Below, piece by piece: positions 20,529-31,697 of a stretch of 64,000 nt of DNA. A program made the position numbers and the translations under genes. Origin of the DNA: Variovorax paradoxus (GTDB lineage Bacteria > Pseudomonadota > Gammaproteobacteria > Burkholderiales > Burkholderiaceae_C); contig NZ_JAGGNV010000020.1 in the NCBI RefSeq assembly GCF_018614955.1, positions 1-64,000 on the forward strand, given 5' to 3'. Under the pieces are notes generated by a model. The model did no database searches. It was given only the letters and a program-made list of their open reading frames with translations, and was not told where the DNA came from. Numbering within the stretch: the first letter of the stretch is position 1; every line of letters begins with the position of its first letter.

Positions 20529-20603
20529 GTCCTCGTAGTTCAATGGATAGAACGGGGTCCTCCTAAGACTCAGATACAGGTTCGATTCCTGTCGAGGGCA
20601 CCA
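20529..20603 (+). tRNA. tRNA-Arg (anticodon CCT)
   Basis: A complete 75-base cloverleaf with encoded CCA. The acceptor stem pairs GTCCTCG with CGAGGGC (one G:U). The D-arm is GTTC...GAAC, and the anticodon stem GGGTC/GACTC bears loop CTCCTAA, anticodon CCT, which reads the AGG codon. The T-arm is ACAGG-TTCGATT-CCTGT. It sits in a gene end common for site-specific integration, and its 3' part recurs in degenerate form at 29774-29808. Confidence 0.95.
20577..20603 (+). repeat. Putative attL: 3' end of tRNA-Arg
   Basis: The last 27 bases of the tRNA (T-arm, acceptor strand, CCA) recur at 29783-29808 with one substitution (C to T in the T-loop) and one missing G. This is the usual position and size of an attachment site for tyrosine-recombinase elements. 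Confidence 0.5.
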
Positions 20604-20712
20604 TTTTGATACGTATCCGGGCACCAAAAGAGCAGGCGAATCAGGCCGCCATGGCGACCCTTGATGGTGCCGCCGGCTGCTCCGCCCAAGACGTCAGCAG
20701 ACTGCCCCCCGG

Positions 20713-21462
20713 CTAGCGCGTGCGCGCGCACCGGCCCGGGAGGCCGGGCTTCGCACCCCTGTCTCGGTTGGTCGCGGTGTGCTCATCGCCGCAGACCCGG
20801 TACAGGCGCCATTCGTCGCACAACCCCTTGAGCGCGTGACACTCGCCGCCGGAGAAGCGCAGGCCCGATCCCATGACCAGATCCCGCACCGTTCCAGAGA
20901 CCACGATCTCGCCGGTGGCCGCGCAGGCCGCGATCCGCGCAGCCACATGGACGGCAAGCCCGGCGACCTTGTCGCCCAGGCGTTCGCATTCGCCCGTGTG
21001 CAGTCCGATGCGGATGCCGATGCCGATCGCCTGCAGCGCGTTTCGGATGGCCAACGCGCAGCGCACCGCGCGCGCGGGCATGTCGAAGCTCGCGAAGAAG
21101 CCGTCGCCGGCCGTGTCGATCTCGCGGCCGCGGCAGGCCGCGAGCTGTGTGCGCACGATCGCGTGATGGCGCTCCAGCAGGCGCGACCAGGCCTCGTCGC
21201 CCAGTCGCTGCGCATGCCCGGACGAATCCACGATGTCGGTGAACATGAGCGTCAGCAGGGCGCGGTCGTCCTCGGCCGTTTCGCTGCTCGGCTGCCGCAC
21301 GGAAAACAGCAGGGCCTCGACTTCCTCCAGCAGGTGCGCGAAACGTTGCGGAGAAAGGCCGCCGGGCACGGGTCCGCCATCGACCAGCGGCCAGGGCGCG
21401 AGCACCCGCTGCGGGATCGCTGCCCGCGGCCATGCGGCGGGCGCTTCGACGGTGATGTTCAT
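20713..21462 (-). CDS. Small class III nucleotide cyclase domain protein
   Basis: A 249-residue soluble protein with a CHD cyclase domain at about residues 65-235. The first metal aspartate is in LMFTDIVDSS and the second in TAGDGFFASFD. The usual Lys ahead of the GD is missing (REIDTAGD) and the second specificity position lies in the divergent GLAVHVAARI, so substrate and activity are uncertain. ATG 21462 is chosen because AAGGAG precedes it by 8 bases; a longer frame from 21570 lacks this. It is divergent from the two-component genes, with about 220 bases between starts, so may report on the same signal. Confidence 0.85.
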   Translation of the reverse strand: MNITVEAPAAWPRAAIPQRVLAPWPLVDGGPVPGGLSPQRFAHLLEEVEALLFSVRQPSSETAEDDRALLTLMFTDIVDSSGHAQRLGDEAWSRLLERHHAIVRTQLAACRGREIDTAGDGFFASFDMPARAVRCALAIRNALQAIGIGIRIGLHTGECERLGDKVAGLAVHVAARIAACAATGEIVVSGTVRDLVMGSGLRFSGGECHALKGLCDEWRLYRVCGDEHTATNRDRGAKPGLPGRCARTR

Positions 21463-21683
21463 GCTCGGCTCCTTCTTGTTGGAGTGGCGGCGCGGGGATC
21501 CAGCGGTGCAATCCAGTGTGTGCCGGCGGGGCGGCGCCTTCAATTGCACGCTCCGGCTAGTCGCCGGCAAATCCGCTACACGCTTTGACTAGGCCGTTTG
21601 TTTAGGCGCCGATCGGAGGGCTTTGGGATACGCTTCGAGCCGGAATCGGAGATCGCGTTCCAGCGTCGCAAGAAGAGGTGCCT

Positions 21684-22367
21684 ATGCGTGTTCTGCTTGT
21701 CGATGACCATGAGATCGTTTGGAGCGGTACGCGCCGCCTGCTGGAGCAGGTCGCCGCCGAAATCGAGCCGGGCCAGCCCTTCGCGTTCGATGCCGCACGC
21801 GATGTCGAGACCGCATGCCAGCGCCATGCAGCCGACTTCGACCTGGTGCTGCTCGACTATCACCTGCCCACGCTGTCGGGCCTGGCCGCCCTGCGTGCGG
21901 TCAAGGCGCATTTCGAGGCCACGCCGGTGTGCATGCAGTCGGCCGAGAGCTCGCCCCAGCGTGTGCGCGAGGTGATCGAGGCGGGCGCGGCCGGCTTCAT
22001 TCCGAAGTCCTACCGGTTGGACGACATGGAGGCCGCGCTGCGGGTCGTGCTGCGCCATCGCATCTACCTGCCCGCCGAGTTCGTGCTGACCGACGACGTG
22101 ACCCGCGCGCGCGAACCCGACGAGCTGCCGCGCGAAGACCTCGCGCGCTTCCTGCGCACCGAGCTTTCGCCGCGCCAGCGCCAGGTCCTGGCACTGGCCA
22201 TTCGCGGCACGCCGGTGAAGCTGATCGCGCGCCAACTGGCGATCGCCGAAGGGACCGTGAAGGTGCACCTTTCCATGGTCTATCGGGCGCTCGGTGCGCG
22301 CAATCGCACGGACGCGCTGTGCCGGGTCTTCGACGCACAGGCCGCGTCAGCGCTGGACCTCCAATGA
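21684..22367 (+). CDS. LuxR-family (NarL/FixJ) response regulator
   Basis: A 227-residue response regulator. The receiver (residues 1-120) has the acidic pair VDDHE and phospho-acceptor D58 in LLDYHLP. A C-terminal LuxR-type helix-turn-helix at about 158-215 reads LSPRQRQVLALAIRG and AEGTVKVHLSMVY. ATG 21684 is preferred over GTG 21678 because of AGAAGAGG just upstream. Its stop overlaps the start of the hybrid kinase (ATGA), and the fusion-enzyme gene follows, so it very probably controls this operon (inference from position). Confidence 0.9.
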   Translation: MRVLLVDDHEIVWSGTRRLLEQVAAEIEPGQPFAFDAARDVETACQRHAADFDLVLLDYHLPTLSGLAALRAVKAHFEATPVCMQSAESSPQRVREVIEAGAAGFIPKSYRLDDMEAALRVVLRHRIYLPAEFVLTDDVTRAREPDELPREDLARFLRTELSPRQRQVLALAIRGTPVKLIARQLAIAEGTVKVHLSMVYRALGARNRTDALCRVFDAQAASALDLQ

Positions 22368-24127
22368 ACGCGTCTGCTGCTGCCGCTGTCTTGCCGGAAG
22401 TCGCATCGGTCGAACTCGACGAGCGCCGGCTGCAGGTCGTGGCCGAACAGGCGGTGGGCCTGCGCTGGCAGATTCTTTTGACCGCGACCATCGTGGCAGC
22501 GATCGTCTGGCAGTCGGTGCCGGCCGCCGTGGTGCTGGGCTGGTTCGCGGCCGTGATCGGCAGCCGCGAGCTGCGCGCGGCCGCGCTTGCGCACATGGCG
22601 GCCGACCGGCAGCGGCCCATTGCCGCGCGTCTGCGCGCGACCGTGCGCTGGAACGTGCTGATCGGCGCTTGCAACGGTTCCGCCGCGCTCTTCATGGCCT
22701 GGCTCGATCCCTCGCTCGACGCCGTGCTGACCATGATCCTGGTGTCCTGGGGCGCCGGCGCGGTCTCCACCAGTGCGACCGTGATGCCCGCCTTCCTCGC
22801 TTACGCCAGCCTCCTGTTCGTGCCCACCGCGCTCATGTGGGCGCTGTCCGGCAGCTGGCTGGGCCTGGGCGTCGCGGCCCTGGTGCTGATGTTCTTCGGC
22901 GTGCAATTTCGCTTCGCCAGGCGCAACCTCCAAACCTTCGAGGAGTCCTTCCGCATCCGGCTCGAGAACGAAGCGCTGGCCACCAGCCTGGAGTTCGAGC
23001 GGGCGCAGTTGGCGGTGGCGCGCGATGCGGCGGTCAAGGCAAACCAGGACAAGAGCCGCTTTCTCGCCGCTGCGAGTCACGACCTGCGCCAGCCCCTGCA
23101 GGCCATGGCTTTGAACGTCGGCGCCCTGCGCCACCTGCCGATGGGGCAGGAGGCCAAACAGGTCTCGGAGGTGGTCGACGCCAGCCTGGAGCAGCTGTGT
23201 TCGATGCTCGATGCGCTGCTCGACGTCTCGAAGCTGGACGCCGGCGTGGTGGTCGCCCAGCCGCGGCGCGTGCAACTCGACCGCCTGGTCGCGGCCGTGA
23301 TGGGAAGCTTCGGCGCGGCGGCGGCCAGCCGCCAGTTGAAGCTGGATTGGCGCTGCCCGGCGGCGCTCGCCGTCCATTCCGATCCGGACCTGCTGCGCCG
23401 CATGCTCGCCAACCTGGTCGACAACGCCATCAAGTTCACGCCCGGCGGCGGCCGGGTCGAGCTGCAGGTCGTGTCGCACGAAGGCGACGTGGAGATCCTG
23501 GTACGCGACACCGGGCCTGGCATCGCACCCGAGCACCATCGGTTGATCTTCGAGGACCTGGTCCGGCTCGACGCTGGCGGGCCAGCGCCCGTGGGCGGCC
23601 ACGGCCTCGGCTTGGGGATCGTGCGTCGCATGGCCGAACTGCTGAAGATGCCCATCACCTTGGAGTCCGCCCCCGGGGCCGGGGCCGCCTTCCGGCTGCG
23701 CTTGCCGCTGGCCGATACGGCGCAGGCGGCGGCCGACGCATCGGGGCCGGCCTGGAGCCTGGCCGGCCGGCGCGTGCTGGTCCTGGACGATGACTCGATG
23801 GTGCGCGGCGCCTATGTCAACGCCCTTGCAGCCATGGGCTGCCACGCCCTGGCCGCCGCCACGCTGGATGACGCCGTGGCCCAGCTTTCAGCAGCCAACT
23901 GCGACGCCGCAGTGGTCGACTTTCACCTGGGCGGTGGCGTCGATGGCCTGGAGGCCATCGAGCGACTGCGCGCGCTCAAGCCTTCGCTGCCCATGGTGAT
24001 GGTAAGCGCCGACAAGGACGACGCCGTGGTCGGCGCCGCGCGTCGGCATACGCTGGCCTTGCTGCGTAAGCCGGTCGATGCGCCCACGTTGGGCCGAACG
24101 ATCAGCGCGGCCATCGCCGAGCGGTAA
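22364..24127 (+). CDS. Hybrid sensor histidine kinase with C-terminal receiver
   Basis: A 587-residue inner-membrane kinase. Several hydrophobic helices fill residues 28-175 and form a membrane-embedded sensor rather than a periplasmic loop. A HisKA domain with H239 (ASHDLRQP) and a HATPase domain with NLVDNAIKF, DTGPG and GHGLGLG follow. A receiver from about residue 465 has phospho-acceptor D519 (VVDFHLGG). The start overlaps the response regulator stop by 4 bases. The pair with the upstream regulator is a self-contained two-component system. No ligand can be inferred. Confidence 0.9.
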   Translation: MNASAAAAVLPEVASVELDERRLQVVAEQAVGLRWQILLTATIVAAIVWQSVPAAVVLGWFAAVIGSRELRAAALAHMAADRQRPIAARLRATVRWNVLIGACNGSAALFMAWLDPSLDAVLTMILVSWGAGAVSTSATVMPAFLAYASLLFVPTALMWALSGSWLGLGVAALVLMFFGVQFRFARRNLQTFEESFRIRLENEALATSLEFERAQLAVARDAAVKANQDKSRFLAAASHDLRQPLQAMALNVGALRHLPMGQEAKQVSEVVDASLEQLCSMLDALLDVSKLDAGVVVAQPRRVQLDRLVAAVMGSFGAAAASRQLKLDWRCPAALAVHSDPDLLRRMLANLVDNAIKFTPGGGRVELQVVSHEGDVEILVRDTGPGIAPEHHRLIFEDLVRLDAGGPAPVGGHGLGLGIVRRMAELLKMPITLESAPGAGAAFRLRLPLADTAQAAADASGPAWSLAGRRVLVLDDDSMVRGAYVNALAAMGCHALAAATLDDAVAQLSAANCDAAVVDFHLGGGVDGLEAIERLRALKPSLPMVMVSADKDDAVVGAARRHTLALLRKPVDAPTLGRTISAAIAER

Positions 24128-24167
24128 GGCAAGAAGAAGCGGCGGCCGCCCCGCCGAGGAGGTTGCG

Positions 24168-27100
24168 ATGAGCGAGCAAGCCAACGACCGCTGGTTGTCC
24201 ACCGGCGCGGAGGTCCTGATCGACGAGGTCGAGCGCGATCCCGACGCCTGGCATTGCGAGGTGCTGATCGTCGGCAGTGGCTACGGGGGCGCGGTCGCAG
24301 CGGCACACCTGGCTGGCGCCACGCCGGTGGCGGGTGGGGATCCGGTCAAGGTCTACGTGATCGAACGCGGCAACGAGTACCTGCCCGGCGAGTTTCCTGC
24401 CACCTTCGCCGAGATCCCCGGACACGTGCGCTTCAGCAAGCAGGATGGGAAGCCGTCGCGCGGGCGCCTCACGGGCCTGTTCGATCTGCGCCTGGGCAAG
24501 GTGAGCGTGGTGCTGGGCAACGGCCTGGGCGGCGGATCGCTCATCAACGCGGCAGTGATGGAGGAGGCGTCGGAGGATGCCTTCATGGACGCACGTTGGC
24601 CCAAGGATCTGCGTCGGCCTGACGCCCTGAAGGCGCACTACGACGCTGCGCGGTCTATGCTGAAGCCCGAGCAGATGCCGGGTAGCGTCCCCAAGCTTGA
24701 TTCGCTGATGGAGGCGGGCGAAGCGATGGGCGCGTACGGCGAGCGTAAGGCCTGGCTGGCCGTGGCCTTCCACGATGGCACGAGCCCTGCCGGCGTCGCC
24801 ACGCGTGCCTGCATCAAGTGCGGCGACTGCGTGAGCGGATGCAACTATCGCGCGAAGAAATCGCTGGACGCGAACTATTTGGCGATGGCCAAGGCCAACG
24901 ACGCCGAGCTCTTCTGTGGCGCCACGGTGCACCGGCTGCGCGCCGTGGACGAGGGCTACGCGGTCGACTTCTTCCTGACCGACCCGGACGAGGCCCGCGC
25001 CGATCGCGAGCGTTGCTACACGCTGAAGGCGCGGCGCGTCATTCTGGCGGCCGGCTCGCTCGGGTCGACCGAGATCCTGCTGCGCTCGCAGGGCGAGCAC
25101 CTGCCGATCGGCGGCAGCGGCCTGGGCCAGTGCTTCTCCACCAATGGCGACCTGATCGCGGTCGCCCATCGCCAGAAGCCCGTGGCGCATGCCTGCGCGA
25201 AGGAAGGCGATGCGCCGGACCGGCGCAACGTCGGCCCGACCATCACCGGCTTGCTGCGCAAGAAGAACCGCAAGGACCCGCGGCCCCTCGTGATCGAGGA
25301 ATTCGGCATTCCGGCGCCGCTGCGCCGTGCCTTTGCCGAAGTAGTCACCACCAGCGCGGCTCTGCACGACTTGCCGCATGCCGACTCGCGCTTCCACAAA
25401 GAGAACGAAGTCATGGACGATCCGCTGGCGGTGAGCGATCAAGCGCTCGAACACAGCGCCGTGTACGGGATGATGGGCGACGATGGCGCCAACGGGGTGA
25501 TCGAGTTCAAGACCGCCGCCGACGTGCCGATGTGCGACGCACAGGTGTGCATTTCGTGGGACGGTGTCGGCGACCTGCCGGTGTTCAATCGGCAGATGGA
25601 CGCGCTGCGCAAGGCACATGGTGAGTTCTTCGGCCTGGGCGGCAGGGTACTCCCCAATCCGTTGTGGCAGCCGCTGCCCGATCTCGGCCCGCTGGGTGCC
25701 AAGATCGGTGCCACCACCGTCCATCCCCTGGGTGGTTGCCCAATGGCCGACAGCGCCAGTGGCGGGGTGGTCGATCAGTACGGGCGGGTCTTCGCCAAGG
25801 CGGGGGCCAAGACCCCGGAAATGCCCGGCCTGGCGGTGCTGGATGGCTCCATCGTCCCGGTCGCGCTGGGCATCAACCCGGCACTGACCATCGCAGCGCT
25901 GGCGGAGCGCGCCATTCCCGTCCTGGCGAAGGATTGGAAGCTGGTCCCGCGGGGCAGCTCCAAGCCGCAGACCGTGCCGCGGCCGGTGCGACGCGACCGG
26001 AATCATCCGACCGCGCCCCTGCCCACCCGCGTGGCCATTGGGGAGCGCCTGCGCGGCGACGACATCCGCATCGACGGAAAGTCTTTCGCGCTGGAAGCTG
26101 TGGCTGAGTTCGCCCCCGTCGCCGTGCCGGACCTGCGCCGCCTGCCGCGTACGGTGTCGCAACCGCGGGTGATGCTGCGTTTCATCGACGCGGCCGGCAA
26201 GGTTTCGGCGGCCATCTGCCGTGGGCAAGTCAAGCTGCTGGTGCGCGAATCCTCCGATCGCGAGGATCGCATGCTGCGTGTCCTCGGCCTGGTGCGGCGC
26301 AAGCTGGCGGCGCTGGGCATCGGCACCAGTCCGGCTACCGAATACATCCTGGGAAACCTGTGCACGCATTTCGGCGAGGCGCGGCTGATTCGTTACGAGT
26401 GGACCGTCATTGACACCCAAGGCGCCCCGCTTGTGAGCAAGGGCCAGACGATGCATTTCACCAAGCGGCTGGCGCTGACCGAGGGCGCCAATCCATGGCG
26501 ACAGCTCAGTGAGGGCGACCTCGACATGGGCTCGCACAACGGCGGCCGGCTGCGCCTGGACCTGAACTACTTCGTGGAGCAGATGACGCCGCTGCTGAAG
26601 ATCTCGGCGCAGCAGGACGAGCCCAATGCGCTGGGCGATCTGGCCGAACTGGGGCTATGGGTGCTGCGCGTGGCTCTGAACATTCACCTCGTCAGCTTCC
26701 TGCCCCCGACCGACGGTCTGAAGAACAACGGGAAGCATCGGCTGCCGGGAAACGTCGATGGCGTGGATCCTGTCGGCAACGAGGTGCCGCATCCCGAGTC
26801 CCGGACTTTCAAGCCCGGCGAGACACCGCCAGTGCGAAAGCTGTCGCGCTACATCCCCAAGGCCGGTGCCTCAGGCGCACGGCCCGTGCTGCTCATCCAT
26901 GGCTATGGCGCCAGCGGGTCGACCTTCGCGCATGCGTGCATCCCCAACAACCTGGTGAGCACACTCATGAAAGCCGGGCGAGATGTCTGGGTGCTGGACC
27001 TGCGCACCAGCATCGGCCTTTGCCAGCGCGACTACTGGTCCTTCGACGAGGTGGCGCGAGCGGACATTCCGGACGCAGTCAAGCACGTGCTGGAGCAATC

Positions 27101-29690
27101 GGGTGCGCAACAGCTCGACGTGGTGGCCCACTGCATCGGGGCGGCGATGTTCTGCGTGGAAATGCTGCGCAATGAAGACAAGCTGTACGAATCCATCGGC
27201 GCCGTCGTGCTCTCGCAGGTCGGGCCGCTGCTGCGCGCCAGCCCGATGAACCGCTTTCGCGCCTACCTGGCCAGCTATCTGCAGCAGTACATCGGCGTTG
27301 AGCAGTTCGACGTGCTTCCGAACGAACAGACGGCGGCGGTGCTGCTCGCCGACGCGGTGCTGGCGACCTTTCCCTATCCCGACGGCGACGGTGAAGCCAA
27401 GCGCCTTCTGACGGTGCCCGGCTTCGCGGCGGTCCGCCATCGGGCGGACGGCATCTTCGGCCAGACGATGCGCCTCGACAACATCGGCGATCCGATGCTG
27501 CTCTCGCTCGCCGACATCTACGGTTGGGTCATGGTGAAGGGGCTCGCGCAGGTCAGCCACTACGCACGAGAGCAGCTTCTGACCGATGCGCAGGGAATGA
27601 ACCGGGTGGTAACGCACAAGCACCTGGCCGAGCGCTTCGCCTTTCCCGTGATGCTCCTGCATGGTCGCCAGAACGCGGTCTTCGACTGGCGCGGCAGCTG
27701 GGATAGCTACGCGCTGCTGCGTGCCGTCTTCGGCAACAAGAAGAAGCAGTGGCGCGAGGCGCCGCCGAACGATCGCGGCGACATGGTGTTCGGCGAGGGC
27801 ACGCGGCGCCGGCTCGTGGTGCTGGACGCCTACGGGCACCAGGATTGCCTGATCGGCGAGCATGCGGGCAAGGAGGTGTTCCCGCGCCTGGTCAACTTCC
27901 TTGACGAGTTCAGGAACTTACAGCCCGGGGCACCCAATGCGGAGGAGCCGGAGCTGCGCGCCGAATTGCCCTGGAAGGGGCCGGTGCTGGGCCGCGTCGG
28001 TCCGGCCGATGGCGGCAACCTGTTGCGCTGCCGGCTGGCCGTGCTGCCGCCGCCGGCGCGCGCCACGACCCTAGCGGTGGTCTATGTTCCGCTGCGACGC
28101 ACCGAAGCCGGCCTGTGCTTTTGCTTCGACGAGATGGTGGGCCATGAAAGCTCGAACGACGAGTTGCGCTGCGATGCCCTGGAGGTGATCCTGGTCGCGA
28201 GCAAGCTGCCCGACTACGTGGGCTTCGCGGTGGTCACGGTGCACAACGACCTGCCGCTGCTGCGGAAGATCGATGTTTCGATCTGGTCGGAAGTGGACTT
28301 CCTGTTTCGATTCCCCAACCGGGCGCCGTCCGGGGAGACTCGAAGAAAGGTCATCGACCTGTTGCAGCCCGCGTGCACCGACCATCTGGCTTGCGACATC
28401 GACGCCTCGGTCGTGCGCCTCGACTCGGCATGGATCGCGGCCGCCATGAAGACCTCTGGTGCGCCAAGCGCACTGAGCTTCGCGCTCGCGAGTTGCCAGT
28501 ATCCACAGGGCCTCTTCGATGCCGCGCCGGCACAGCGCTCCTGCGAACGCCTGGTACAGCACTTGGACAGCGCCCCGGCCGGCGAGCGGGCGCAACTGTT
28601 GCTGTTGGTGGGGGACCAGGTGTACGTGGACGAGACCGCGGGCCTGTTCCAGCCGAGCAGCGTGAACGCGGTCGAGCACGCATACTTCCACGGCTTCCGG
28701 CTCGAGGCTTGGCGCGCCGCGACGCGCCGGCTGCCGACCTACCCCATGCTCGACGATCGCGAGCTGGGCAACAACTGGGAGCCGGGTTCCCTGCCCTCCG
28801 CGCTCGAGAACGCCGGTCTGTGCGCCTACCGCCGCCACCAGCACAAGTGGGCGGAAGACCCCTCGGTGATCGAGCTCAACTACAGCATCAAGGCCGCGGG
28901 TCGGCTCTTCAATGTGCTGGACACGCGCAGCCGGCGACAGCAGCGTGTGCTGCGCCCCACGGCCGGCGCGAAGTTGCTTGGCGACGCGCTCATCCACGAC
29001 GCGCTCGACGCCACCCGGACGGCGCAGTTGCTGAAGGACCTGCCTGCGGATTCGCCCGCCTTCATCGTGTCCTCGGTGGCGCTGCTGCCGCTGCCGCGCC
29101 GGGCGCTGTTCGCCCAACCATCTGAACGCCTGGGGCTGGACGACTGGAGCGGCTATCCGAGATCGCAGTTCGATCTGCTCGAGATCCTGCGCGACGGCCC
29201 GGCGCGGCAGGTGATCCTGCTGGCGGGCGACCGCCACATGTCCAGCGTGTCGAGCCTGTGGATGAAGGGGGCGGGCGGCACGGTGGAGGTGATCTCCATC
29301 GTCTCCTCGGGCCTGTATGCCCCCTGGCCGTTCGCCAACTCACGGCCCGAGGAATTCTGGCTGGACGGGCCGGTCTCGATGAGCTTCGAAGGCCGCCGCA
29401 TCGAGGGGCAGGCGGTCACGGCCGCCGCCGGCACCAGCGACGGCTATGCGCTGGTCCGTGTCGAGCCGGAAAAGAGCGGCGGCTGGACGCTGCACGTAAC
29501 GCTCGACCTGGCCGAAGGCCGCATTGTCTGCCGGCGTCCGCTGGGTGGTGTCGATCCCCATGCCGTCTGGACCATCGACGGCTTCGAGGGGGGCCCGCGA
29601 ACGAAGACGTTCGACATACGGACGCTGCCGGCCGCGAGCTCTGCCCACGCTGCAGCAAGCGCTGCGCCCGAGTCGTCGTCGGGCGGCTGA
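24168..29690 (+). CDS. Giant fusion: GMC oxidoreductase, alpha/beta hydrolase, PhoD-like phosphatase
   Basis: An 1840-residue protein with three enzymatic regions. Residues 1-590 form a cholesterol oxidase-like GMC flavoprotein: FAD site GSGYGG at 36-41, a cysteine cluster C215, C218, C221, C225, and the catalytic HPLGG at H519. A linker of about 300 residues follows. An alpha/beta hydrolase occupies about 890-1255: oxyanion HGYG at 911, nucleophile elbow AHCIG with Cys989 in place of Ser, acid in the segment before GHQD, and catalytic His there. A PhoD/metallophosphatase-like region (about 1435-1765) has GDQVY, MLDDRE and LLAGDRHMS. The start is set by GAGGAGG 5 bases upstream of ATG 24168. 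No signal peptide is seen, so it is probably cytosolic or peripheral. The substrate is likely sterol- or lipid-like (inference from the GMC subfamily). It follows the hybrid kinase by 40 bases. Confidence 0.85.
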   Translation: MSEQANDRWLSTGAEVLIDEVERDPDAWHCEVLIVGSGYGGAVAAAHLAGATPVAGGDPVKVYVIERGNEYLPGEFPATFAEIPGHVRFSKQDGKPSRGRLTGLFDLRLGKVSVVLGNGLGGGSLINAAVMEEASEDAFMDARWPKDLRRPDALKAHYDAARSMLKPEQMPGSVPKLDSLMEAGEAMGAYGERKAWLAVAFHDGTSPAGVATRACIKCGDCVSGCNYRAKKSLDANYLAMAKANDAELFCGATVHRLRAVDEGYAVDFFLTDPDEARADRERCYTLKARRVILAAGSLGSTEILLRSQGEHLPIGGSGLGQCFSTNGDLIAVAHRQKPVAHACAKEGDAPDRRNVGPTITGLLRKKNRKDPRPLVIEEFGIPAPLRRAFAEVVTTSAALHDLPHADSRFHKENEVMDDPLAVSDQALEHSAVYGMMGDDGANGVIEFKTAADVPMCDAQVCISWDGVGDLPVFNRQMDALRKAHGEFFGLGGRVLPNPLWQPLPDLGPLGAKIGATTVHPLGGCPMADSASGGVVDQYGRVFAKAGAKTPEMPGLAVLDGSIVPVALGINPALTIAALAERAIPVLAKDWKLVPRGSSKPQTVPRPVRRDRNHPTAPLPTRVAIGERLRGDDIRIDGKSFALEAVAEFAPVAVPDLRRLPRTVSQPRVMLRFIDAAGKVSAAICRGQVKLLVRESSDREDRMLRVLGLVRRKLAALGIGTSPATEYILGNLCTHFGEARLIRYEWTVIDTQGAPLVSKGQTMHFTKRLALTEGANPWRQLSEGDLDMGSHNGGRLRLDLNYFVEQMTPLLKISAQQDEPNALGDLAELGLWVLRVALNIHLVSFLPPTDGLKNNGKHRLPGNVDGVDPVGNEVPHPESRTFKPGETPPVRKLSRYIPKAGASGARPVLLIHGYGASGSTFAHACIPNNLVSTLMKAGRDVWVLDLRTSIGLCQRDYWSFDEVARADIPDAVKHVLEQSGAQQLDVVAHCIGAAMFCVEMLRNEDKLYESIGAVVLSQVGPLLRASPMNRFRAYLASYLQQYIGVEQFDVLPNEQTAAVLLADAVLATFPYPDGDGEAKRLLTVPGFAAVRHRADGIFGQTMRLDNIGDPMLLSLADIYGWVMVKGLAQVSHYAREQLLTDAQGMNRVVTHKHLAERFAFPVMLLHGRQNAVFDWRGSWDSYALLRAVFGNKKKQWREAPPNDRGDMVFGEGTRRRLVVLDAYGHQDCLIGEHAGKEVFPRLVNFLDEFRNLQPGAPNAEEPELRAELPWKGPVLGRVGPADGGNLLRCRLAVLPPPARATTLAVVYVPLRRTEAGLCFCFDEMVGHESSNDELRCDALEVILVASKLPDYVGFAVVTVHNDLPLLRKIDVSIWSEVDFLFRFPNRAPSGETRRKVIDLLQPACTDHLACDIDASVVRLDSAWIAAAMKTSGAPSALSFALASCQYPQGLFDAAPAQRSCERLVQHLDSAPAGERAQLLLLVGDQVYVDETAGLFQPSSVNAVEHAYFHGFRLEAWRAATRRLPTYPMLDDRELGNNWEPGSLPSALENAGLCAYRRHQHKWAEDPSVIELNYSIKAAGRLFNVLDTRSRRQQRVLRPTAGAKLLGDALIHDALDATRTAQLLKDLPADSPAFIVSSVALLPLPRRALFAQPSERLGLDDWSGYPRSQFDLLEILRDGPARQVILLAGDRHMSSVSSLWMKGAGGTVEVISIVSSGLYAPWPFANSRPEEFWLDGPVSMSFEGRRIEGQAVTAAAGTSDGYALVRVEPEKSGGWTLHVTLDLAEGRIVCRRPLGGVDPHAVWTIDGFEGGPRTKTFDIRTLPAASSAHAAASAAPESSSGG

Positions 29691-29773
29691 GGGCAAGCTC
29701 TTTCAACGTCTTTGGCCCACAGCCCCGGGGCTGAGTTGCAAACCAGTACCGGCCGTAGAGGTCTGCCGATCTG

Positions 29774-29808
29774 CCTAAGATCCAGGTTTGATTCCTGTCG
29801 AGGCACCA
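29774..29808 (+). pseudogene. Degenerate 3' fragment of tRNA-Arg (putative attR)
   Basis: CCTAAGA of the anticodon loop and a T-arm/acceptor run of 26 bases ending ACCA repeat the 3' half of the tRNA at 20529-20603, with 7 bases missing between them, a C-to-T change in the T-loop and one lost G. The 5' half (acceptor strand and D-arm) is absent, so it cannot make a functional tRNA. It lies 7 bases before the end of the GFA gene. Confidence 0.6.
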
Positions 29809-29815
29809 GCGCCGA

Positions 29816-30232
29816 CTAGCCGGACGGCATCCGCTCGAATGCCTGCAACGACGGATCGATGGCGTCCCACGCCAACCCGCGGACGCTGTAGGTGAGGACC
29901 TGCGGCTCGAAGCGGTCCGGGTCGTCCAGGCTGCCCGCGTGGACCGCGATCAGGTCCGGCGTCAAGACGAAGCTCAGGTAGACCGGCGTTCCGCAGACCG
30001 GGCAGAAGGCGTGGACCTTCACGTTGCCGTTGTCGCATGCGACCTGCCAGTGCGTCGCCTCGCCGGTGATCGTCATCTCGGCGCGCGCGGGAAAGGTCAG
30101 GTAGGAGCCGTGCCCGGTGCCGCTCCGTCGCTGGCAGTCGCGGCACTGGCAGTGGTTCTGGAAGACGGGCGCGTGCTTCGTTGCGTAGCGGATCGCGCCG
30201 CACGCGCATCCGCCGGTGTAGGGCTGGGTCAT
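29816..30232 (-). CDS. GFA family zinc protein (glutathione-dependent formaldehyde-activating type)
   Basis: A 138-residue protein of the GFA/CENP-V family. The zinc ligands are in GGCACGAIRY, CQCRDCQ and CPVCGTP. The founding member was proposed to form S-hydroxymethylglutathione, but most family members are uncharacterised. ATG 30232 is chosen because the zinc core starts seven residues in. It is the last gene of the ArsR-SRPBCC-GFA operon, 14 bases after the SRPBCC stop. Its 3' end abuts the degenerate tRNA fragment. Confidence 0.85.
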   Translation of the reverse strand: MTQPYTGGCACGAIRYATKHAPVFQNHCQCRDCQRRSGTGHGSYLTFPARAEMTITGEATHWQVACDNGNVKVHAFCPVCGTPVYLSFVLTPDLIAVHAGSLDDPDRFEPQVLTYSVRGLAWDAIDPSLQAFERMPSG

Positions 30233-30246
30233 GAACAACTCCCGAT

Positions 30247-30711
30247 TCAGGCCGCCTTCGGCTTGGCGAAGACATCGATGCCCTGCCCCGTTTCCAGCAG
30301 GGACTTCAGGCTGGAAAGAACGATCGGCCAGCCCTGCTGGATGCCCTTGGCCATCCCGCTGCCGGCTTCGAGTTCGTCGTGGGTGACGGTCAGCCGCACC
30401 ATCTCCTCGTACGCCGCGACGTCGAAGCTCACGCGGCTGTAGCTGGCCGGATCGGCGGCCTGCGAGGCGTTCGCCCACGTGATGACCAGGCGCGTCGGCG
30501 GCGCGACCTCGACTACCTTGCCGACCAGTTCGACCGTGCGCTGCTCGTTGGCGCGCACGTGCTCCCAGGTCGATCCGGGCTTCCAGTCGGAGACGTTCTC
30601 GTGGCCCCAGTAGCGCCGCGCGATTTCCGGTTTCGTGATGGCCTCGAACACCTTTTCCGGCGTCGAGCGGATGTAGGTCACATAAACGAAGCTGGTCTTC
30701 TCTTTGCTCAC
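30247..30711 (-). CDS. SRPBCC (AHSA1/START-like) family protein
   Basis: A 154-residue protein with the helix-grip fold of the SRPBCC superfamily, AHSA1 type (VYVTYIRSTPEKVFEAITKPEIARRYW near the N-terminus). These proteins bind hydrophobic ligands in a central cavity and very often sit directly downstream of an ArsR regulator, as here. The GTG at 30711 is chosen because AAGGAG precedes it by 7 bases; it starts 2 bases after the ArsR stop. The ligand is unknown. Confidence 0.85.
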   Translation of the reverse strand: MSKEKTSFVYVTYIRSTPEKVFEAITKPEIARRYWGHENVSDWKPGSTWEHVRANEQRTVELVGKVVEVAPPTRLVITWANASQAADPASYSRVSFDVAAYEEMVRLTVTHDELEAGSGMAKGIQQGWPIVLSSLKSLLETGQGIDVFAKPKAA

Positions 30712-30713
30712 CG

Positions 30714-31028
30714 TCAATCTCCTTCGAGTTCCTTCTTCATGTCGTGCAGCAGGCTGAGCCGCTGGCGTTCGAATTTCCGCACCCACCGCTCGTAGACCTC
30801 GTGCAGCGGCACCGGGTTGATGAAATGCCGCTTCTCCCGGCCACGCCAGACCGTGCTCACCAGATTGGCCGCCTCGAGGATCCCGATGTGCTGGGTGGCC
30901 GATTGCCGCGCCATGTCCAGGTGCTCGCAGAGCTCGCCCAGCGTCTGCCCGTTCCTCTCGTACAGCAGGTCGAGCAGCTTTCTGCGTGTCGGGTCGCCCA
31001 GCGCCTTGAAAACCTTATCAGCGTCCAT
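30714..31028 (-). CDS. ArsR-family transcriptional regulator
   Basis: A 104-residue winged-helix regulator (MDADKVFKALGDPTRRKLLD, recognition helix MARQSATQHIGILEAA). It has no CxC metal-binding motif (the sole Cys, in ELCEHL, is isolated), so it belongs to the non-metal ArsR branch paired with SRPBCC proteins. It heads the operon with the SRPBCC and GFA genes. A perfect palindrome inside its own promoter (31059-31074) points to autorepression. ATG 31028 is chosen because the fold begins there. Confidence 0.9.
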   Translation of the reverse strand: MDADKVFKALGDPTRRKLLDLLYERNGQTLGELCEHLDMARQSATQHIGILEAANLVSTVWRGREKRHFINPVPLHEVYERWVRKFERQRLSLLHDMKKELEGD

Positions 31029-31051
31029 CCGTTGTGTTTGTGCGTGAGGGG

Positions 31052-31081
31052 ATGATACGCAGGTAAATACCTGCATGTCAA
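31052..31081 (-). promoter_or_regulatory. Sigma-70 promoter of the arsR operon
   Basis: On the minus strand TTGACA (31081-31076), an 18-base spacer and TATCAT (31057-31052) form a near-consensus promoter. Transcription would start around 31045, leaving a short leader before the ArsR ATG at 31028. Confidence 0.75.
31059..31074. promoter_or_regulatory. Palindromic operator in the arsR promoter spacer
   Basis: GCAGGTA-AA-TACCTGC is a perfect 7+2+7 inverted repeat that occupies almost the whole spacer between the -35 and -10 boxes. Binding of the dimeric ArsR protein here would block RNA polymerase, giving negative autoregulation (inference from position and family). Confidence 0.7.
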
Positions 31082-31222
31082 GCAGCGCATCGGCCTACGT
31101 GCCGCGCGATTGCTCGCTTGAAGCTATACCGCGCTATCGCCACGCGCTACGACAAGACCGTCGCGGCCTTCCTGGGCGTTGTGCACTTGGCGGCAATCGT
31201 TTGGCTCAATTGATGACAGGCC

Positions 31223-31513
31223 CTAGGCAGAGCGATGGTGGCGAACGTCCAGCCAATCCAGCAGCGTCGTGATGGCCAGGCCCGCGAATGACGCAACCTC
31301 CACGACCAGCGCCACGACGACAGCCAGCAGCTGCGGGTCGGGCAGATCGAATTCGAGGAGATCCAGGAGTGAACGCTCTGGCGGAGGGGATATGGGCGGA
31401 GGTGGAAAGACAATCTCGACTCCGACCAAGCTGGACAGCGAGATCGTCGCAAGCAGGAACATCCAAACGAACAACCGTTGAAGTCTCTTGCGCATCTCTG
31501 CTGGTGACCCCAT
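31223..31513 (-). CDS. Small two-helix membrane protein, unknown
   Basis: A 96-residue hypothetical protein with two hydrophobic helices (about residues 14-36 and 60-84) separated by a proline-rich loop (PPPPISPPPE). ATG 31513 is preceded by GGAAAGGA at a suitable distance. No family is recognised. It stands alone, so the call rests on its membrane-protein pattern and ribosome site only. Confidence 0.5.
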   Translation of the reverse strand: MGSPAEMRKRLQRLFVWMFLLATISLSSLVGVEIVFPPPPISPPPERSLLDLLEFDLPDPQLLAVVVALVVEVASFAGLAITTLLDWLDVRHHRSA

Positions 31514-31697
31514 GTCGCTTTGTCCTTTCCAACCCCAGTTCGGCCGTACCGCCTCATCAAACAAGGGCGCGGTGGCTATTGCATCTGAGAGTACGCCTTA
31601 AGTATTCATTGCTCTATAGGCGCTTTGTCATGACGCACATGGCTGCAATGCACCGGGGCACCGCGGAGGCGACAGCAGCGGCTGCCAGAATTCGCTT

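Follow-up and report, generated by a model that had tools for sequence, protein, structure and literature searches.

A conserved fusion of GMC oxidoreductase, alpha/beta hydrolase and PhoD metallophosphatase domains in Variovorax paradoxus and its relatives

A stretch of 64,000 nucleotides from Variovorax paradoxus (contig NZ_JAGGNV010000020.1, positions 1 to 64,000; hereafter the window) carries a gene in which a GMC oxidoreductase, an alpha/beta hydrolase and a PhoD-type metallophosphatase are joined in one chain. This is a genuine conserved three-enzyme protein, and its features are as follows. Other genomes and loci are given by G and L numbers.

24168..29690, + strand: fusion gene GMC - linker - alpha/beta hydrolase - PhoD, 1840 amino acids (aa) (open frame, Pfam, Shine-Dalgarno-like GAGGAGG before the ATG)
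24249..25943, + strand: GMC oxidoreductase domain, cholesterol-oxidase-like, residues 28-592 (Pfam, nearest solved structures)
24810..24842, + strand: CxxCxxCxxxC motif, Cys215, 218, 221 and 225, possible iron-sulfur (Fe-S) site (alignment rows)
25968..26828, + strand: linker domain without a Pfam family, residues 601-887 (Pfam scan, model residues 1-287)
26829..27953, + strand: alpha/beta hydrolase domain, acid/gastric-lipase-like, residues 888-1262, with Cys989, Asn1169 and His1224 (Pfam, structure match, alignment)
27951..29591, + strand: PhoD domain together with the beta domain at its N-terminal side, residues 1262-1808 (Pfam, structure model and alignment)

The fusion gene and its domains

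The frame is open from its first ATG at 24078 to 29690; among the possible starts, 24168 is favoured by the GAGGAGG a few bases 5' of its ATG. The three domains named in the preliminary description were all borne out by Pfam matches above the gathering scores (GMC_oxred_N, 110-307; GMC_oxred_C, 515-579; Abhydrolase_1, 906-1183; PhoD, 1513-1697), and the limits proposed for them (1-590, 890-1255 and 1435-1765) proved close. A chance frame in GC-rich DNA is excluded by the full-length alignment of relatives and by purifying selection, since 1826 residues align with the homologue at L062 at 74.6% identity and the approximate dN/dS for this pair (simple NG86 count) is 0.23 for the GMC domain, 0.32 for the linker, 0.26 for the hydrolase, 0.46 for residues 1263-1430 and 0.30 for PhoD. 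Purifying selection thus acts across all domains of the fusion. An assembly artefact is ruled out by the occurrence of the fusion in 19 other Variovorax genomes and on Ensifer plasmids. As to a phage origin, no PHROG was found for the whole chain at E 0.001, and the PhoD part had no match in the phage collection.

Catalytic and metal positions of all three enzymes are near invariant across the aligned rows. These counts refer to 37 rows, with 9 rows added later for some motifs, and L021, where the gene is broken across frames, was excluded. The GMC part scored 42.4 bits on PF00732 (cut-off 23) and 44.6 bits on PF05199 (cut-off 24.6), and His519 and Asn570 are present in 37/37 rows. The four cysteines of the CxxCxxCxxxC motif are likewise invariant (37/37 rows and 9/9 of those added later). 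Such spacing is typical for Fe-S sites of the ferredoxin type, and within the GMC family a bacterial FAD glucose dehydrogenase is known to have an Fe-S cluster. A cluster may be bound here; the cysteines could instead have a structural role. Directly 3' of a two-domain GMC-hydrolase gene, a gene for a RoxA-like cytochrome c was found at L204 (3567-5684) and L207 (9209-11137), and this cytochrome is a possible electron acceptor. The invariant motif together with the cytochrome neighbours at these two two-domain loci therefore favours a dehydrogenase for the GMC part, and the earlier label "oxidase" is unsupported as written.

The linker of the window had no match in Pfam, and nine linkers together gave one weak match (DUF5730, E 0.14), below the cut-off. 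In the hydrolase part, PF00561 was matched above the gathering cut-off and the fold agrees. The triad positions hold Cys in 37/37, His in 37/37 and Asn in 36/37 rows, so the Ser-His-Asp triad of acid and gastric lipases was not found; the Asn-for-Asp assignment is weak, as the alignment stretch with lipases scores 8.4 bits. This lipase-like part probably has a cysteine active site, as judged from the alignment, and a plain serine hydrolase, as the preliminary description would imply, does not fit a domain in which Cys replaces Ser at the nucleophile position. A lone hydrolase-domain relative at L208 (6306-7475) has Gly there and is possibly inactive.

The C-terminal region is a PhoD metallophosphatase domain, as had been proposed, with a score of 36.3 bits on PF09423 (gathering cut-off 27) and an agreeing fold. 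In Bacillus subtilis PhoD, the Fe/Ca ligands are C180, D207, D265, D266, N271, N272 and D436 (PMC4223295). The set as given there recurs in the window: alignment places D1483, D1529, D1530, N1535, N1536 and D1688 at equivalent positions, and C1443 corresponds to C180 by motif only, lying outside the aligned stretch. A phosphatase or phosphodiesterase activity is predicted for this domain. No signal-like N-terminus was seen by eye in the fusion, which suggests a cytoplasmic location.

Distribution of the fusion and of its split relatives

The number of genomes with all three domains in one gene was counted in searches of one genome per species. Among 101 Variovorax genomes, 27 matched the PhoD part and 20, including the window, have GMC, hydrolase and PhoD in one frame; one of these 20 (G022) is cut in the GMC part by the contig end. 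The 27 matches further comprise two genomes (G106, G087) where PhoD is the next gene and not fused, one remnant, one 940-aa frame with a PhoD part near a contig start (G045, unfetched and left out of the fused count), and three weak matches in unfetched frames of 614-658 aa (G097, G053, G102). The remnant, in G067 (L079, 3508-3750), lies beside flanking genes common to L076, and loss of the fusion is probable there. The profile of linker and hydrolase matched 21/399 genomes of the order sample, seven of which have full fusions (the window, G442, G310, G132, G218, G155 and G275) and one of which (G197) has a split form; in the phylum sample it matched 9/398 genomes. A scan of named genomes, kept out of the counts, gave among the 80 loci listed fused genes at L090, L091 and L097 (L090 is G110 again and L091 is G022 again) and split ones at L092 and L093; the stretches fetched for the remaining loci matched neither GMC nor hydrolase. 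Among plasmids, seven records, all of Ensifer, match 80% or more of the query at a single place, and both records opened have all domains in one frame. The three-in-one gene thus occurs in 20/101 Variovorax genomes, in six other genomes of the order and on Ensifer plasmids.

The fusion corresponds to no named family in Pfam or NCBIfam; in NCBIfam no full-length model was found, the best being cholesterol oxidase below its cut-off. The literature search yielded no report on the three-domain combination and nothing on GMC plus hydrolase plus cholesterol oxidase, its matches seeming unrelated by title or start of abstract and most subscription journals lying outside it. The preliminary description had called the added PhoD-like region unusual; such a chain is already in public records, where the Ensifer protein WP_205239617.1 is annotated merely as "alpha/beta fold hydrolase".

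In relatives the activities are also found together as neighbouring genes. Pairs on one strand, GMC-hydrolase followed by PhoD, occur at L080, L081, L088, L092 (a Rhizobacter metagenome-assembled genome, MAG), L093 (a Chromatiales MAG), L196 and L203. At the seven fetched Variovorax loci without PhoD (L014, L016-L021), a relative of the L020 phosphoesterase lies directly upstream on the same strand. The L020 protein is Metallophos by Pfam, a calcineurin-type phosphoesterase; the corresponding protein of L014, a second two-domain copy without PhoD in the window's own genome, had no Pfam match, and its label therefore rests on homology to L020 (E 1.1e-157). A Metallophos gene is directly downstream of the two-domain gene at L022, and at L207 one follows the RoxA-like cytochrome c, one gene away. 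A quick-method tree of 41 rows, with long branches and a tool warning that two joins may be false (L021, L089, L090, L091 and L203-L213 omitted), placed the eight rows without PhoD on one side of a branch, and the fused label needs five changes on it.

Two further loci may be mentioned. At L021 (3580-7429, G004) the two-domain gene and its phosphoesterase neighbour are both broken across frames, by decay or assembly error. On a conjugative plasmid of Rhizobium leguminosarum (L212, 1-9473), a two-domain GMC-hydrolase gene lies near PhaE, an iron-containing alcohol dehydrogenase and a CoA-transferase.

Neighbouring genes and the surrounding segment

Upstream of the fusion lie a two-component system and a divergent cyclase gene, and tRNA sequences flank the region:

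20529..20603, + strand: tRNA-Arg (CCT), left edge of a variable segment
20716..21570, - strand: gene with a class III cyclase domain (PF00211), oriented divergently to the regulator, with an uncertain start (domain scan; also at L062 and L065)
21684..22367, + strand: response regulator with LuxR-type helix-turn-helix (domain scan, homologues)
22364..24127, + strand: hybrid histidine kinase with HisKA, HATPase_c and receiver (Pfam, homologues)
29775..29808, + strand: 3' end of tRNA-Arg in partial copy (89% over 35 positions), possible attachment (att) site on the right

Regulator and kinase genes overlap by 4 bases, and the kinase ends 40 bases before the fusion; against the NahK/ErcS-type model NF041832 it scored 267.5 bits, below the cut-off of 400. 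The two-component system assigned to the fusion earlier is thus present, and its homologues adjoin 24 of the 26 fused loci with both flanks (L015, L062-L078, L082-L087); outside the 26 are L013, without a flank, and L097, with the downstream flank alone. Gene order and strand differ among families, indicating that the kinase/regulator link outlasted rearrangement. At 15 of the 18 fused Variovorax loci showing a regulator, its identity to that of the window is 86-95%, with the enzyme at 52-75%; the other three regulators have 37% (L015), 74% (L077) and 32% (L078). The cyclase neighbour occurs in the window, at L062 and at L065, with a much longer one in Ensifer. At L066 (11853-13001) a PLD-like (PLDc_2) gene is divergent from the regulator, and its cluster is found at 11 Variovorax loci, the assignment coming from a Pfam run on one member.

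The segment 20604-31677, from tRNA-Arg to an NMNAT/Nudix gene, spans 11 kb in the window; the same interval is about 0.9 kb in G003 (L190) and about 15.7, 7.3 and 2.3 kb at L191, L192 and L193, where no nucleotide match to the window segment was found. The partial tRNA copy sits just 3' of the fusion gene. Judged from these sequences, 20529-31677 is a tRNA-Arg (CCT) hotspot. Among the 24 fused loci of the order, L015 alone shows tRNA genes (Asp, His) within the stretch that was fetched, so the tRNA site is particular to the window.

Proposed function and comparison with known systems

From the observed domains, conserved residues, genetic linkage and purifying selection, we infer, with a probability of roughly 45%, a regulated enzyme that acts in three steps on a lipid-like compound with alcohol, acyl and phosphate groups. 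The GMC domain, with FAD and probably an Fe-S cluster, would oxidise the alcohol and hand the electrons to an external acceptor; the acid-lipase-like domain would break or transfer the acyl bond by means of its cysteine; the PhoD domain would remove or cleave the phosphate using Fe and Ca; and the adjoining kinase and regulator would control the gene. The order of these steps is as conditional as the activities themselves. By analogy with the nearest structural families, cholesterol oxidase and lysosomal acid/gastric lipase, the substrate may be a sterol ester or another lipid. The trio is kept together in related bacteria, which suggests a common substrate. Joint action on one substrate, as first proposed, has support short of proof: the split genes keep the order of the fusion, and two-domain forms have another gene of metallophosphatase type at their side.

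Several observations weigh against this proposal. In the window the near-invariant DDHE of PhoD reads DDRE, the other PhoD-bearing rows having His; Arg1531 (codon CGC, 28758-28760) may be a genuine substitution or may stem from a sequencing error. Part of the neighbours of L023, L204, L205 and L206 were scanned and included no phosphatase, and at L199-L202 a large kinase adjoins GMC and hydrolase genes that are not joined. Neither kinase nor regulator is alongside the two Ensifer fusion loci or in the one (downstream) flank of L097. Moreover, kinases and regulators are common genes, and 24/26 is a raw count.

That the domains share no substrate, at least one being structural, regulatory or degenerate and the fusion just ensuring co-expression, would agree with Arg1531, with the Gly-bearing relative at L208 and with PhoD being fused, split, replaced or absent among relatives. 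It is improbable, however, given that the remaining catalytic and metal residues hardly vary in any of the three domains, that every domain is under purifying selection and that two phosphatase types accompany the same GMC-hydrolase pair. An equally low likelihood is assigned to the dismantling of phospholipids, in which PhoD would have phospholipase D or phosphodiesterase activity, the lipase-like part would remove acyl chains and the GMC part would oxidise the freed choline- or glycerol-like alcohol. C1443 places the domain in the Cys subfamily that includes the Streptomyces chromofuscus phospholipase D (PMC4223295), and 11 Variovorax loci have the PLDc_2-type cluster lying divergently to the regulator (Pfam on one member). 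These loci, however, belong to one genus with shared synteny, and the GMC part had no match to a choline dehydrogenase model, a sub-threshold cholesterol oxidase being its best in NCBIfam. Somewhat less unlikely is an acyltransferase or PHA-synthase-like middle domain, whose cysteine would form a thioester and hand its acyl group on to an alcohol or a thiol; the fusion would then serve synthesis instead of degradation.

Returning to the three-step enzyme, its middle domain may be a cysteine lipase or acyltransferase occurring in nature, whose Cys-His-Asn triad resembles that of papain but sits in an acid-lipase fold, and which would make up, in one chain with an Fe-S/FAD dehydrogenase and an Fe/Ca phosphatase, a channelled machine for processing lipids; this idea is tentative, at somewhat less than even odds. 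Whether a lipase-fold enzyme can use cysteine and asparagine is a question raised by protein engineers (PMC6642262), and the fusion would, if the idea holds, be a natural test case for it. If the three-step proposal is true, the activities recurring together in several Pseudomonadota lines would mark one unrecognised pathway, hidden behind the label "alpha/beta fold hydrolase".

Among known systems, cholesterol oxidase is closest to the GMC part, both in solved structures (1coy) and as NCBIfam model (NF058674), on which the fusion nevertheless scored 144.6 bits against a cut-off of 850 and so is no equivalog. Cholesterol oxidases are not known to have the CxxCxxCxxxC motif. Lysosomal acid and gastric lipases (6v7n, 1k8q, 1hlg) are the nearest structural family to the hydrolase part, whereas the fusion has Cys for their Ser and Asn for their Asp. 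PHA synthase PhaC (9knj, 5xav) shares the alpha/beta-hydrolase fold and a Cys at the equivalent place, but the fusion scored only 16.9 bits on the PhaC model TIGR01836 (cut-off 365.3). Compared with Bacillus subtilis PhoD (2yeq), the PhoD of the window is fused, lacks a signal peptide by eye, has DDRE instead of DDHE and shows no C-terminal cap helix in the secondary structure of its model. The closest parallel in architecture is WP_205239617.1 of Ensifer sp. PDNC004, whose single frame of 1908 residues repeats the order GMC, linker, hydrolase, PhoD and has matching Cys, His and metal motifs, although its identity to the window fusion is 33.5% over the aligned pieces and a long cyclase-domain gene stands alongside it instead of a kinase and regulator.
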